A stretch of 64,000 bases of DNA, taken from assembly GCF_000522985.1 (NCBI RefSeq), contig NZ_CP007128.1, positions 4,944,220 through 5,008,219 on the forward strand, read 5' to 3'. A program made the translations under genes and the position numbers. Below the pieces are notes generated by a model. It saw nothing but the letters and a program-made list of their open reading frames with translations. It had not been told where the DNA came from and ran no database searches. Origin of the DNA: Gemmatirosa kalamazoonensis (GTDB taxonomy: Bacteria; Gemmatimonadota; Gemmatimonadetes; Gemmatimonadales; Gemmatimonadaceae). Below are positions 15,551 to 61,411 of the stretch, piece by piece (position 1 is the stretch's first letter; each line of letters starts with the position of its first letter).

Positions 15551-15682
15551 ACTCCACGCACGTGTTTCTGAAGGACGAAAGAGGACTGAAGAAGGACTGA
15601 AGAAGGACGACATCTCTTGTTGGTCCTTCTTCAGTCCTTCTTCAGTCCTCCTTCAGTCCTACGAAAGCCACGTACGTGGAGT
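15551..15682. repeat. Hairpin repeat family B, copy 1
   Basis: Tandem GGACTGAAGAA units (15568-15609) are followed by inverted units TTCTTCAGTCC (15621-15666) across an 11-base spacer, and the whole is bounded by ACTCCACGCACGTG and CACGTACGTGGAGT. A second copy with the same units and the same outer boundary is at 52262-52399. It fills the gap between eamA and the M28 peptidase gene and could end transcription of both neighbours. Confidence 0.8.
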
Positions 15683-22774: not shown

Positions 22775-23273
22775 CGGTCGACGGCGGGACGCCTCACACC
22801 TGACGGCGGGACGATCTACTGCGGGACGATCCACGGCGGGACGATCGACCGCGGGACGTCGCATGCGGGATCGTGCTGCGGCGCGCGGGTGCGTGGCTCG
22901 ACGCGGGGACGAGCCTTCTCAGTGTTTGGATCGCGGATCAGCGGATTCGCGAATCCGGCGCTCCGCTCACCAAACGCGAGGGGCTTACTCCGGGACGGGG
23001 CCGTGAGACGGCGCCGCGATGCCTCCATGCGGATCTGGTCCGCGTCGGATCGGTACCGCGGCGTGCAGCGCATGTAGCACCTTGGGCGAAGGGGGGGGCC
23101 CCCCTAGGGACTAGGTACGCGCCGTCCCCGTGGTGAATCATCCCGCCGTATCCATCCTGCCGTCGATCGTCCCGCCGTCGATCGTCCCGCCGTCGATCGT
23201 CCCGCCGTTAGGCGTCCCGCCGTCAGGCGTCCCGCCGTTAGGCGTCCCGCAGTGAGGCGTCCCGCCGTCAATT
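22775..23273. repeat. Hairpin repeat family E, copy 1 (inverted arrays of a 15-base unit)
   Basis: The left array (22775-22862) has units such as ACGGCGGGACGATCG; the right array (23139-23273) has the reverse complement, GTCGATCGTCCCGCC, with some units ending TTAGGC. Between them is ~275 bases holding a perfect palindrome CGGATTCGCGAATCCG (22942-22957) inside GTTTGG...CCAAAC, and element F (23038-23107). No coding gene is seen in these 500 bases. Confidence 0.8.
23038..23107 (+). repeat. Dispersed element F, copy 1
   Basis: A ~70-base stretch (GCGTCGGATCGGTACC ... GTAGCACCTTGGGCGAAGG, then G8C6) that recurs with about 85-90% identity at 50908-50979. Both copies end in a G-run followed by a C-run that can fold on itself. 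It lies inside the loop of repeat E. Confidence 0.65.
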
Positions 23274-23277
23274 CACG

Positions 23278-24429
23278 TCACGGCTTCTCCGCCCGCACCG
23301 CCCGCACCGCGATCCCCTCCGCCACCGCGTCCGACGGGTTCACGACGACCGTCGCCCCCTCGTCCAGCCCGGACAGCACCTCGATCTCGGTGCCGAAGTC
23401 GCGGCCCAGCTCCACCTTCGTGAAGTGCACGCGGCCGCCGCGCAGCAGCGCGACCTGCGGACCGTTAGGCCCGGAGACGAGCGCGTTCGCCGGCAGCAGC
23501 ACGCCCGGCGTGACGTTGCGCACCGCGAGGCGCACCTGCGCGTACATGCCCGGCAGGAGCGCCGCGTTCGGGTTCGGCACGTCGACCTCGGCGAGCATGG
23601 TGCGCGTCGCGGCCTCCACGGCGCCCGACGTGCGCACTACGCGCCCCGTGAAGCGCGCGCCGCCGAGGCTCTGCACGACGATCTCGGCGTCGGAGCCCGG
23701 ATGGAGCTGCGCGGCGGCGGCCTCGGGGACGTTGATCATCACGCGTCCCGTATCGGCCTGCGCGAGCACGAACAGCGGGCGAGCGCCGCCGCCCTGCGCG
23801 GGACTCACGAGCTGCCCCACCTCGACGTTGCGCGCCGTCACCGTGCCGGCGAACGGCGCGACGACGCGGCCGAAGCTCTGCATCTCCTGCAGCCGACGCA
23901 CGTTCGCCTCGCCCGCCGCGAGGTTCGCCGACGCCGCCTCGAAGCCGGCTTCCTTCTCGTCGAGCTCCTGACGCGTCGCCGCGCTGTCCTTCACCATCGC
24001 ACGCCACCGGTCGAGCGACGTGCGCGCGAGCGCGTGCGCCGCGCGGACCTGGCCGAGCGACGCGCGCGCCTGCGCGAGCTCCTGGTCGAGCTCCGGCGTC
24101 TCGATCTCGGCGAGCAGCTGTCCGGCGCGCACGCGGCTGCCGATGTCGGCGTGGAAGCGGCGCACGTAGCCCGAGCTGCGCGCGTAGAGCGCCGCCTCGC
24201 GCATCGCCTGCACCGTGCCCGGGAGCAGCAGCTCGCCCGACGCGCTCGCACGCTTCACGGTGACGACGGAGACGAGCGGCGCCTCCGTCACCGCGTGCGT
24301 GCGGGCCTCGAGCGCCTGCTTGCGACGCAGGCGCGGCACCGCGCCGACGAACAGCAGCACGACGAAGAACGCGCCGGCCCCGGGGAGCAGGCGGCGCGCG
24401 CCTCGCCCCGACGGCGGCGGCGCGCTCAC
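23278..24429 (-). CDS. RND efflux periplasmic adaptor (membrane fusion protein)
   Basis: 383 residues. A basic start and one N-terminal span (GAFFVVLLFVGAVP) anchor it in the inner membrane. Then: barrel-sandwich strand ALYARSSGYVRRFHADIGSRVRAGQLL, a coiled-coil hairpin (~105-185, TPELDQELAQARASLGQV), return strand VVAPFAGTVTARNVEVGQLV, and the beta-barrel and membrane-proximal domain. It links the RND pump to the TolC-type channel. The GTG start overlaps the pump's stop (GTGA). It is the last gene of the tolC-RND-adaptor operon; repeat E begins four bases after its stop. Confidence 0.87.
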   Translation of the reverse strand: MSAPPPSGRGARRLLPGAGAFFVVLLFVGAVPRLRRKQALEARTHAVTEAPLVSVVTVKRASASGELLLPGTVQAMREAALYARSSGYVRRFHADIGSRVRAGQLLAEIETPELDQELAQARASLGQVRAAHALARTSLDRWRAMVKDSAATRQELDEKEAGFEAASANLAAGEANVRRLQEMQSFGRVVAPFAGTVTARNVEVGQLVSPAQGGGARPLFVLAQADTGRVMINVPEAAAAQLHPGSDAEIVVQSLGGARFTGRVVRTSGAVEAATRTMLAEVDVPNPNAALLPGMYAQVRLAVRNVTPGVLLPANALVSGPNGPQVALLRGGRVHFTKVELGRDFGTEIEVLSGLDEGATVVVNPSDAVAEGIAVRAVRAEKP

Positions 24430-28919: not shown

Positions 28920-28976
28920 GACTGCGGGAGCGGGTACGACTGACTACGCAGGGGGAGGGGTTAGCGTTCGGTCCTC

Positions 28977-29110
28977 CTACGGCGGGACGACGAAGGGCGG
29001 GATGGTGGACGGCGGGATGACTTACTGCGGGACGATCGACGGCGGGACGATCGACGGCGGGACGATCAACGGCGGGACGATCCACTGCGGGACGATCTAC
29101 GGCGGGACGG
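28977..29110. repeat. Hairpin repeat family E, copy 2, left array
   Basis: Eight or so near-identical units of the type ACGGCGGGACGATCG. The inverted array is at 29570-29664, so the pair encloses 460 bases holding the four-helix-bundle gene. Same unit as at 22775-23273. Confidence 0.85.
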
Positions 29111-29190
29111 ATGAGGCGGCGGTGCGTTTTGGGGGATGGTGGCGCGTTCTCGCGGTAGGGTGGGTCGATCGAGTGGTGCGAGACTGGGGC

Positions 29191-29697
29191 ATGGACAAGA
29201 GAGCGTCCCAGAAGCGGCCGGCGAAGTCGTTTCGCGACCTGGTCGTGTGGCAGGAGGCGCACAAACTGGCGGAGTTCGCAGCCGGCATCTGCGACGGACT
29301 GCCACGCCGGGAGTGGAGTCTCGCGGACCAGCTGCGGCGGGCGTCGTCCTCCGTGCCGTTCAACATCTCCGAGGGGAACGGTGCGCCGACGCGTCCCGAC
29401 TACCTCAAGTACCTCGGCTCCGCGCGCAAATCGCTGAACGAGGTCGAGAGCCAGCTCGAGCTACTCCGCGCCCGCCACCTCGCACCCGCCGCCCAGCTCC
29501 GCACCCTGTCGCTCCACATCTCCCGAACAGGCCGCCTGCTCGCCGCGCTAACCCGCTCACTATCGAAGCCTCCCGCCGTCGATCGTCCCGCAGTGGATCG
29601 TCCCGCAGTAAGTCATCCCGCCGTTCAGCATCCCGCCGTTCAGCATCCCGCCGTTAGGCGAGCCCGCCAAAGGCGCCCTCGAACGCCCGGCGCGTGA
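29191..29697 (+). CDS. Four-helix-bundle protein of the S23 / 23S rRNA intervening-sequence family
   Basis: 168 residues. The first ~120 match the S23/IVS four-helix family: KSFRDLVVWQEAHKLAEFAAGI, WSLADQLRRASSSVPFNISEGNG, YLKYLGSARKSLNEVESQLEL. Members are found in intervening sequences of 23S rRNA and scattered in many genomes; their function is unknown. The C-terminus runs on into the right-hand repeat array and is repetitive (PAVDRPAVDRPAVSHPAVQH), so ~45 residues are repeat-derived. The 3' end overlaps the end of hemL by 44 bases on the opposite strand. ATG 29191 starts the conserved part. Placement between inverted repeat arrays suggests a mobile unit. Confidence 0.8.
   Translation: MDKRASQKRPAKSFRDLVVWQEAHKLAEFAAGICDGLPRREWSLADQLRRASSSVPFNISEGNGAPTRPDYLKYLGSARKSLNEVESQLELLRARHLAPAAQLRTLSLHISRTGRLLAALTRSLSKPPAVDRPAVDRPAVSHPAVQHPAVQHPAVRRARQRRPRTPGA
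29570..29664. repeat. Hairpin repeat family E, copy 2, right array
   Basis: Inverted units (GTCGATCGTCCCGCAGT, TCAGCATCCCGCCG) complementary to the array at 28977-29110. It is read through by the four-helix-bundle gene and abuts the hemL stop codon. Confidence 0.85.
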
Positions 29698-40640: not shown

Positions 40641-40790
40641 TCTCACGCGGAGGCGCGGAGAACGCGGAGAACTGCTCTTGCTGTGTGATCGAACCGCAGA
40701 GGACGCAGAGGGTCGCAGAGAACCCCAGCGGTCCTCTGCGTCCTATTCGGTTCAATGGTGTTCTCCGCGTGCTCCGCGGCTCCGCGTGAG
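40641..40790. repeat. Nested hairpin repeats: family C1 inside family C2
   Basis: Outer arms CTCACGCGGAGGCGCGGAG... (40641-40672) and ...CTCCGCGGCTCCGCGTGAG (40760-40790) enclose an inner hairpin, GAACCGCAGAGGACGCAGAG (from 40691) paired with TCCTCTGCG...CGGTTC (to 40754). The outer type occurs alone at 61330-61411 and the inner type alone at 48457-48539, so one element has landed in the loop of another. It fills the 184 bases between the metallophosphoesterase and GMC genes. Confidence 0.85.
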
Positions 40791-40793
40791 CCA

Positions 40794-42551
40794 TCAGGAG
40801 ATCGTCAGGCCCGGCGCCGCGGCCGCGGCGTAGCCGCCGGAGCCGGGGCGCACGATGCCCGGAATGACGATCGGCGATTCGATCAGCTCGGGCGCCGTCG
40901 CGTGCGGGTCGTCGGGCACCAGCAGCGACGGCGTGGCGTCGCGCGGCTCGGCGGGGCGCCACTTGCGCGCGACCCGGTGGAGCTTGATCGGGTAGATGCG
41001 CAGCGCGCCGTCGGGCGTGACCTGCAGCCGCAGCCAGCTCTTGTAGTCCTCGATCCGCATCGAGGAGAACGCTTCCGTGTTGTGGCGGTGGAACAGGTTG
41101 AGCGAGATCAGGAGGTAGAGCCCCATGATCACCGAGCCGACCACGTAGCCGCCGACGAGCAGGAAGCCGCCGACCGTGAGCCACTGCAGCCACTGCGGAC
41201 GGCCGGCGAGCACGTTCGCCGCGAATGCCGCGCCGATCCACCCCGAGAAGAACGCCGCCAGCAGATGCGCCAGGGCGTGCAGCGTGCCGCCGAGTCGCTT
41301 CTGCGTCGGCGAGTGGGAGTCGGTGAACGTGACGAAGCCGAACACGACGAGCACGCCCCACACCATCGCCGTGGGGCTGAGCAGCACGGCGTCGCGCAGC
41401 GCGGCGAGCGCGCGCGTCGGCTCCCTGAGCGACACGGCGCCTAACGGCACCTTCACCGACCAGCCGAGCAGCAGGTACAGCACCGCGGTCAGGATCCCGA
41501 ACTTCGGGTTGTGCCTGATGAACAGCAGGTTCCCCCACGACAGCCGCTTCGACTCCTCGACGCTCGGGAACGACGCCTTCAGCGTGTAGCCCTCCGGAAG
41601 CGTCGCGACCTCGGACACGTCGTGGTGCGTCGGCGACAGGTACGCGCCGCCGCCGCCGGCGGTGATCTTCTGCCGGCCGTCGCGCGCCTCGTGGCGCCGG
41701 TAGTGGTGCAGGTCGCCCGAGAGGAACACCTCGATGCGCCGCCCGAACACCTCGCGCTCGAGGTAGTTGAGGTTTCGCTGGGTGAGCGACGGGTCGAACT
41801 TCGCGTAGCGCGCTTCCTCGATCCAGTGCGGCTCCGCGGTGCAGAGGATCACGCGCGCGTCGTCCTCCATCTGCTTCGCGACGCCGCGGAAGTACTCGAG
41901 CTGCGGGTCGTCGATGTCGGAGTCGAGCTGCACGTCGGTGCCGACGAGCCACCAGTGGTGCGGCAGCCGCACCGCGAAGTAGCTCACCGACTGGCGTGCC
42001 TGCCACCCGCCGAGCGCGCGGTCGCGCGTGCCGCAGAACAGCCGCGTGAACGACACCAGGCTGTCGTACCAGTCGTGGTTGCCCGGCACCGCGAAGACCG
42101 ACGGCTGCGGCTTCGCGCTGTTGGGCAGCGCGGTGCGGTACGGCGCGACGAGCTTCTGCTCGTACCACTCGCGGCTGGGCGTCGGGTACACCTCGTCGCC
42201 GCCGAACACGAGCACCTGGCCGCGCCGCGTGAGGTGCGTCGTGCCGCGCGGGTCGTCGACGCTCAGCGTCGGCTGCGCCACCTGGTGGGCGATGCCGTAC
42301 GTCGCGTTCCAGCCGTCGCCGGTGTCGGAGACGTAGTCGAGCCACAGCTCGTCCCACGTCGAGTAGTCGCAGACGCCGATGTCGCGGTGCGCGATCGAGT
42401 CGAGGATGCGGCGGTCGGCGTTCTGGCCGAACAGCTCCGAGACCAGCACGCGCATGCCCGTGCGCATCAGCTGGGCGGGATCGAACCAGCCGGTCATCGT
42501 CGCCCGCTCGCTCTTCGCCGGCACGCGCGGCGCCGGCGCCGATCCGGTCAC
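40794..42551 (-). CDS. Membrane-anchored metallophosphoesterase
   Basis: 585 residues. The N-terminal ~350 are a calcineurin-like phosphatase domain: LVFGGDEVYPTPS (metal Asp), FAVPGNHDWYDSLVSF (GNHD), LCTAEPHWIEEARY and LSGDLHHYRRHEARDGRQKITAGGGG (metal His pair). The C-terminal part has four or so membrane spans (FGILTAVLYLLLGWSV, MVWGVLVVFGFVTF, AHLLAAFFSGWIGAAFAAN, GGFLLVGGYVVGSVIMGLYLLI). I choose GTG 42551, because GGGAGG is 6 bases upstream and it overlaps the patatin stop as GTGA; ATG 42497 is the alternative. It would hydrolyse a phosphoester, possibly of a lipid given the neighbours. Confidence 0.82.
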   Translation of the reverse strand: MTGSAPAPRVPAKSERATMTGWFDPAQLMRTGMRVLVSELFGQNADRRILDSIAHRDIGVCDYSTWDELWLDYVSDTGDGWNATYGIAHQVAQPTLSVDDPRGTTHLTRRGQVLVFGGDEVYPTPSREWYEQKLVAPYRTALPNSAKPQPSVFAVPGNHDWYDSLVSFTRLFCGTRDRALGGWQARQSVSYFAVRLPHHWWLVGTDVQLDSDIDDPQLEYFRGVAKQMEDDARVILCTAEPHWIEEARYAKFDPSLTQRNLNYLEREVFGRRIEVFLSGDLHHYRRHEARDGRQKITAGGGGAYLSPTHHDVSEVATLPEGYTLKASFPSVEESKRLSWGNLLFIRHNPKFGILTAVLYLLLGWSVKVPLGAVSLREPTRALAALRDAVLLSPTAMVWGVLVVFGFVTFTDSHSPTQKRLGGTLHALAHLLAAFFSGWIGAAFAANVLAGRPQWLQWLTVGGFLLVGGYVVGSVIMGLYLLISLNLFHRHNTEAFSSMRIEDYKSWLRLQVTPDGALRIYPIKLHRVARKWRPAEPRDATPSLLVPDDPHATAPELIESPIVIPGIVRPGSGGYAAAAAPGLTIS

Positions 42552-48456: not shown

Positions 48457-48539
48457 GAACCGCAGAGGACGCAGAGGGCCGCAGAGGAAACCAACAGCAA
48501 TTGGTTTTCCTCTGCGGCCCTCTGCGTCCTCTGCGGTTC
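48457..48539. repeat. Hairpin repeat family C1, single copy
   Basis: GAACCGCAGAGGACGCAGAG... (48457-48493) pairs over about 36 bp with ...CTCTGCGTCCTCTGCGGTTC (48503-48539), loop about 9 bases. It lies exactly between the convergent kinase and dehydratase genes, and its edge supplies the TGA stop codon of the dehydratase. Confidence 0.9.
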
Positions 48540-52261: not shown

Positions 52262-52399
52262 CTCCACGTACGTGTGTCTGAAGGACTGAAGAGGGACTGA
52301 AGAGGGACTGAAGAAGGACGACACAACGTCTTTGTTGTTGGTCCTTCTTCAGTCCTTCTTCAGTCCTCCTTCAGTCCAACGAACACTCGGACGTGGAGC
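52262..52399. repeat. Hairpin repeat family B, copy 2
   Basis: Tandem GGACTGAAGAG units and inverted TTCTTCAGTCC units, with outer ends CTCCACGTACGTG and CGGACGTGGAG. Matches 15551-15682 in units, order and boundary. It fills the gap between the convergent patatin and ubiB-like genes. Confidence 0.8.
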
Positions 52400-61329: not shown

Positions 61330-61411
61330 CTCACGCGGAGCCGCGGAGGATGCGGAGAACTGCAACACGATGGTGTTGATCTTCTCCGCGTTCTCCGCGG
61401 CTCCGCGTGAG
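61330..61411. repeat. Hairpin repeat family C2, single copy
   Basis: CTCACGCGGAGCCGCGGAG... (61330-61360) pairs with ...CTCCGCGGCTCCGCGTGAG (61383-61411); the centre has CAACAC/GTGTTG. Same type as the outer arms at 40641-40790. It separates the convergent oxidase and SDR genes. Confidence 0.85.

Follow-up and report, generated by a model that had tools for sequence, protein, structure and literature searches.

A hairpin enclosed in the loop of another hairpin lies between a GMC oxidoreductase gene and a metallophosphoesterase-like gene of the window (the whole 64,000-nucleotide stretch of DNA analysed here). The outer layer is designated A, the inner layer B, and the whole element A(B) (Table 1). 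It takes up most of the gap between the two genes. The metallophosphoesterase-like gene stops 3 bp beyond its end (TGA, minus strand, 40794–40796), and the GMC oxidoreductase gene starts 31 bp before its beginning (40609, minus strand).

The right neighbour has no Pfam match at E 0.001, and its motifs GNHDW and GDLHH, seen by eye, are metallophosphoesterase-like. The left neighbour is the GMC oxidoreductase; at E 1e-100 it is found only in its own genome among the 59 genomes searched, and its best match among GTDB contigs is 55% identical and belongs to a different phylum.

Table 1. Hairpin features of the window, with positions counted from its first nucleotide
Feature	Position	Strand	Basis	Pairs with
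Whole nested element A(B)	40641..40790	.	sequence read and fold	
Layer A 5' arm, TCACGCGGAG-type, three repeat units	40642..40672	+	sequence and fold	~40760–40790
5' linker, class t1 (..GCTGTGTGA.. type)	40673..40690	+	junction comparison	
Layer B 5' arm, GAACCGCAGAGG-type	40691..40716	+	sequence and fold	40728–40753
Layer B 3' arm, partly decayed	40728..40753	+	sequence and fold	40691–40716
3' linker, class t2	40754..40759	+	junction comparison	
Layer A 3' arm	40760..40790	+	sequence and fold	~40642–40672
Lone B hairpin, convergent gap	48457..48539	.	fold z -17.2	
Lone A hairpin, convergent gap	61330..61411	.	fold z -11.0	

The RNA fold of the nested element reaches -102.4 kcal/mol, whereas shuffled sequences average -59.2 (z -11.1), and none of 200 shuffles equals it. 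The DNA fold of the other strand gives z -11.0. The inner B copy is decayed, and its 3' arm is short of approximately one of the three repeat units. Rfam gives no match in the 64-kb window at gathering thresholds.

The nest itself, and the lone copies of its inner and outer types elsewhere in the window, had been described in an earlier note. Direct reading of the sequence and folding bear out both descriptions. By the simple gene caller, the lone B is ~21 bp from one stop codon and touches the other, and the lone A is 4 and 1 bp from the two stop codons. The note had named a family never found outside nests as an outcome speaking against its view; lone A and lone B both exist.

The window contains other repeats as well. 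Arrays of 15-bp units, TCCCGCCGTCGATCG-like, are seen at 22800–23300 and 28960–29690. Near-identical arrays of the 11-bp unit TCCTTCTTCAG are seen at 15606–15676 and 52324–52383, 37 kb apart.

A layered hairpin family with one order of nesting

Far from being a local accident, the nested hairpin belongs to a layered family of hairpins with many copies. In the genome of this soil bacterium (four contigs, 7,479,215 bases), the outer-arm (A) pattern is found 121 + 113 = 234 times, against 2 + 3 = 5 for the reversed control. The inner-arm (B or C) pattern is found 227 + 222 = 449 times, against 0 + 0. Clusters of arms were examined in 1.96 of the 7.48 Mb: nearly the whole of contig C4 (1,040,000 of 1,040,503 bases), 40 stretches of C2, C3 and C4 chosen around hits, eight stretches of C2 where hits are few, and the window, a sample biased towards hits.

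The 130 multi-arm clusters found there share a single order, with A outermost, then B, then C, D or E. Inward steps from A lead to B in 56 cases, to D in 3, to C in 2 and to E in 1. Those from B lead to C (50), D (17) or E (15), and among the inner types one step each is seen from C to E and from E to C. In none of these clusters does a step lead inward to A, and B is entered only from A. On C4, read whole but for 503 bases, B is present in 10 of the 18 A-bearing clusters. All three layers, A(B(C)), can be contained in ~270 bp (L012). Based on inspection by eye, the arms of A, B and C are mutually alike, each with about three copies of a ~10-base unit, CRCRGAGG-like. The inner types are seldom seen without an outer one: an A or B arm was detected in the cluster for 33 of 35 C, 10 of 11 D and 15 of 18 E. 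Five C of the first census appeared to be alone, and a B-like arm variant is close by each once the sequence is viewed.

The hairpins are placed at the 3' ends of genes. Gene positions here are those of a simple codon-based gene caller written for the analysis (1514 genes). Among co-directional cases, 53 of 62 hairpins are closer to the upstream stop codon (median 13 bp) than to the next start codon (median 54 bp). Of 129 cases, 45 lie in convergent gaps and 11 in divergent ones, and the nearer stop codon is within 25 bp in 34 of 39 convergent cases. Such closeness to stop codons suggests that the hairpins influence transcript ends at many genes. A T-run directly behind the hairpin, as in a terminator, was sought at 153 downstream ends, only 4 of which are T-rich. 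The two arms of a copy co-vary in B (0 of 2000 shuffles), weakly in A (3 of 2000) and not in C (628 of 2000).

Of the phylum's 298 genomes, 102 contain the arm pattern, mostly as one or two matches, which is near the control level, and 196 have none. It is abundant in few genomes, and both large and zero counts occur inside one genus. The 449 matches of the present genome are accompanied by 244 in G086 and 0 in G064 of the same genus as G086, and by 46 in G093 against 0 to 1 in the other listed members of its genus. Twenty stretches picked around pattern hits represent the other genera (g14, g19 and g22). Read by eye, they contain enclosed hairpins in G086 (g14), G158 (g22) and G160 (g22); in G119 (g19), the same arms form direct arrays. 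In one such array (L203, G119:C23:135500-136683), B-like and C-like arms alternate in direct tandem, with one inverted C arm at the end.

A C-type hairpin of the same sequence family is seen in another phylum, on the Bacteroides ovatus plasmid NZ_CP081918.1 (L225:1200-1270). It lies behind a stop codon between gmd and a fucose synthase gene, ~15 bp after gmd. Four viral contigs contain an exact arm match. One of them (L229) carries a hairpin behind a TGA read as a stop codon, and the other three show no clear hairpin in the bases viewed. BLAST against 50,697 phage records gave no match.

Gain of units, junctions and the origin of the nest

Gaps between orthologous genes were compared at the urate operon. 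The present genome carries A(B) in the allB–alc gap of this operon, and a single A in each of the xdhB–allB and alc–uraD gaps. The gene alc is present in 27 of 179 family genomes including the present one, and the 26 relatives were compared, less those whose locus ended or whose neighbour gene was not found. The allB–alc gap is 187 bp here with A(B), and -22 to 144 bp in 20 of 22 relatives measured. The two exceptions are 339 bp, with a different repeat, and 844 bp, read as another gene. No A or B arms were seen in this gap, partly by eye, in the 22 relatives. The alc–uraD gap is 108 bp here with A and was measured in 24 relatives, of which 23 have -7 to 27 bp and one has 745 bp. The xdhB–allB gap, with A here, is -4 to 82 bp in 14 relatives measured. 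At another locus, the rhaI–rhaB gap contains B here and is at most ~28 bp in two of three relatives, the two that are measurable. In two relatives (L147 and L152), the allB–alc gap has TCACTA-type tandem repeats in place of a hairpin.

As judged from these sequence comparisons, the view that the units move or spread is supported, because relatives are without A or B hairpins at the urate-operon gaps, because copy numbers are patchy within genera and because units in co-directional gaps lie close behind stop codons. The earlier note had deduced mobility from the nest at 40641–40790. Mobility of the units stands on these observations, not on that nest. The further claim that B was inserted into an A loop at this very site is not supported: composites recur over the genome in one fixed order, a small set of junctions is common to them, and the inner copy here is decayed.

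Some units could have been duplicated together with a gene, since flanks of different elements resemble paralogous gene ends. Alike flanks form 56 pairs among 257 flanks. Of the 40 pairs listed, most have 65–80% identity and were taken for the ends of paralogous genes; in two, neighbouring elements lie so close that their flanks overlap. One pair of sites, G000:C2:1223349 and G000:C2:2548457, has gene ends 79% identical over 371 bp with different hairpin types behind them, and might serve as a test of insertion within the genome.

A Y1 transposase (PF01797) has no match in the present genome, with the control positive in 5 of 14. Among 15 other carrier genomes, 4 have one and it was not found in 11, including the largest other carrier, G086. 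As most carriers are without the usual Y1 transposase, what copies such hairpins is a directly testable question. No target-site duplication was detected: repeats of at least 5 bp flank 1 of 42 A elements and 3 of 51 B elements, and the shuffled means are 2.1 and 2.2. Neighbouring A or B arm pairs 320–6000 bp apart, which could enclose a gene as in an autonomous copy, number 0 in the 1.96 Mb examined. A resemblance to integron attC sites was considered on account of GTTAGGC or GCCTAAC near many hairpins. This idea was dropped because the octamer CGTTAGGC is common over the whole genome. The octamer is present 1309 times in the 1.96 Mb, against ~65 by a rough guess from composition, for example just beyond G000:C4:681827.

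The junctions between A and B fall into few classes. Among 52 A–B sides, 24 are t1, 12 are t2, 10 are t3 and 1 is t4, which places 47 in four classes and leaves 5 unclassed. In all 15 composites with both sides readable, the two sides differ in class. Four of the 14 other two-sided composites repeat the t1/t2 pair of the window copy, and they include both orientations. Counted by hand, two-sided composites lie 5 in one orientation and 4 in the other. With at most 2 mismatches allowed, 20 of 56 nested sides carry the t1 linker, compared with 1 of 24 loops of lone A and none of the 48 loops of innermost B. The composites closest to the window copy are ~79% identical to it over the whole element. 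Because the junction classes are few and the t1/t2 pair recurs, the window copy probably descends, as far as sequence can tell, from an old nesting and not from a one-off local insertion.

It was also considered that the t1 and t3 linkers are the own ends of lone B. Only 11 of 62 lone B sides are t1- or t3-like within 3 mismatches, compared with 30 of 52 nested A–B sides and 24 of 5000 background sites, and the candidate was rejected. The lone B with such sides look like decayed composites, since at least one of them (C4:830998) retains the stub of an A arm.

A sequence test for one young composite lineage was negative. The mean identity of B is 0.835 within nested copies and 0.839 between nested and lone copies, a difference reached by 589 of 1000 label shuffles. 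Among A arms, identity is lower in nested copies (0.842) than in lone ones (0.907; 993 of 1000 shuffles). Short arms and gene conversion could account for both the likeness of B and the divergence of A. As nested and lone B are inseparable and A arms differ more when nested, the nests could go back to one event or to several.

With somewhat better than even confidence, we favour the following explanation. Types A to E would be non-autonomous, dispersing, long-armed hairpins that insert just behind stop codons and are REP/REPIN-like in general kind. In a few old events, the apex of A would have received B, and that of B would have received C, D or E. Such composites would then have spread as whole units in both orientations and decayed, the window copy being one of them. 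Movement might proceed through a folded single strand and an enzyme acting in trans, other than a Y1 transposase. The likeness of nested to lone B and the greater divergence of nested A arms speak against one young composite lineage with a single founder. The first of these is also what would be expected if B kept entering A loops, with hairpin apices as preferred targets and each nested site an event of its own, since nested and lone B form one sequence population. The t2 junction resembles B set within an A apex (ACACCA..TGGTGT), and insertion sequences that target REP palindromes are known (PMC1525189). This is a possible but clearly less probable account, because many sites have the same few junction classes, the single t1-like loop among lone A provides no clear empty target, and the order is strict with no reverse nesting.

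The position directly behind stop codons and in convergent gaps, the great stability of the hairpins and the co-varying arms of B and, weakly, A could also be explained by immobile signals at 3' ends, acting as RNA or DNA (terminators or stabilisers of the message) and maintained by selection, with layers formed by local duplication. C, however, shows no co-variation, T-rich ends are rare, the same operon gaps of relatives are without A or B hairpins, nearly two thirds of the phylum's genomes are without the arm pattern, and two-sided composites occur in both orientations; we regard such signals as an unlikely source of the nests. Still less likely is fold-back copying, in which a tandem array of arms is copied onto itself in replication to generate a nested palindrome in one step without insertion. 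The array of G119, with the same arm types in direct tandem and an inverted copy at its end, is of the form that such copying would use, but the model predicts equal linkers on both sides of a composite, which none of the 15 has.

Apart from these alternatives, it can be speculated, tentatively and as a rather improbable extension, that bacteria of at least two phyla share a Y1-less class of mobile DNA whose small hairpins serve at once as cargo, target and vehicle. Homing to related apices and to gene 3' ends would build the ordered palindromes, and the candidate mover would be outside the known enzymes. The ordered nesting records the order of events, and could help to establish when tiny elements spread within a bacterial genome.

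Comparison with known systems

Among the matches listed in open-literature searches, a scope outside which most subscription papers lie, there is no publication that by title or visible abstract concerns this hairpin family, and no title on it among the matches listed for Gemmatimonadetes with palindromic repeats. The closest comparison is with REP and REPIN sequences and their RAYT (TnpA-REP), which are described as non-autonomous and thought to be mobile, with REP stems of 5–13 bp (PMC3116915, PMC8266576). The present hairpins are likewise short, non-autonomous, palindromic, extragenic and numerous, with presumed mobility. Two inverted repeats form a hairpin in both, with arms here of ~30 bp. 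They differ from REPs, besides arm length, in the nesting of layers and in the Y1 transposase, which has no match in the present genome and was not found in most other carriers.

GTAG- and CGTC-tagged REPs are hairpins often located downstream of coding regions, and the CGTC REPs are without a dedicated transposase (PMC3733652). The present family is similar in downstream placement and, to the CGTC REPs, in the absence of a dedicated transposase, and differs in tag and stem length. By eye and without a formal test, no GTAG or CGTC tag was seen at the hairpin ends of 41 complete A and 33 complete B. These ends are mostly TCTCACG or GCTCACG, and TTGAACC or TCGAACC. The words "nested" and "Gemmatimona-" do not occur in the main text of that paper. 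BIMEs are mosaic clusters of REPs placed side by side in alternating orientation (PMC2817692). Both BIMEs and the present composites consist of several palindromes, but here enclosure is the rule and not side-by-side arrangement. MITEs of DDE insertion sequences differ by their target-site duplications, of which none was detected here around A or B elements.

For the small dispersed repeats of cyanobacteria, too, mobility has been argued from a tiny repeat lying within another, and the likeness drawn here is in that argument. A mobile unit that enters a palindromic repeat is also seen in the insertion sequences that target REPs, namely IS1397, ISKpn1, IS621 and ISPpu9 (PMC1525189). In the present family, unlike those cases, guest and host are both small hairpins without genes, and A, B and C look mutually related.
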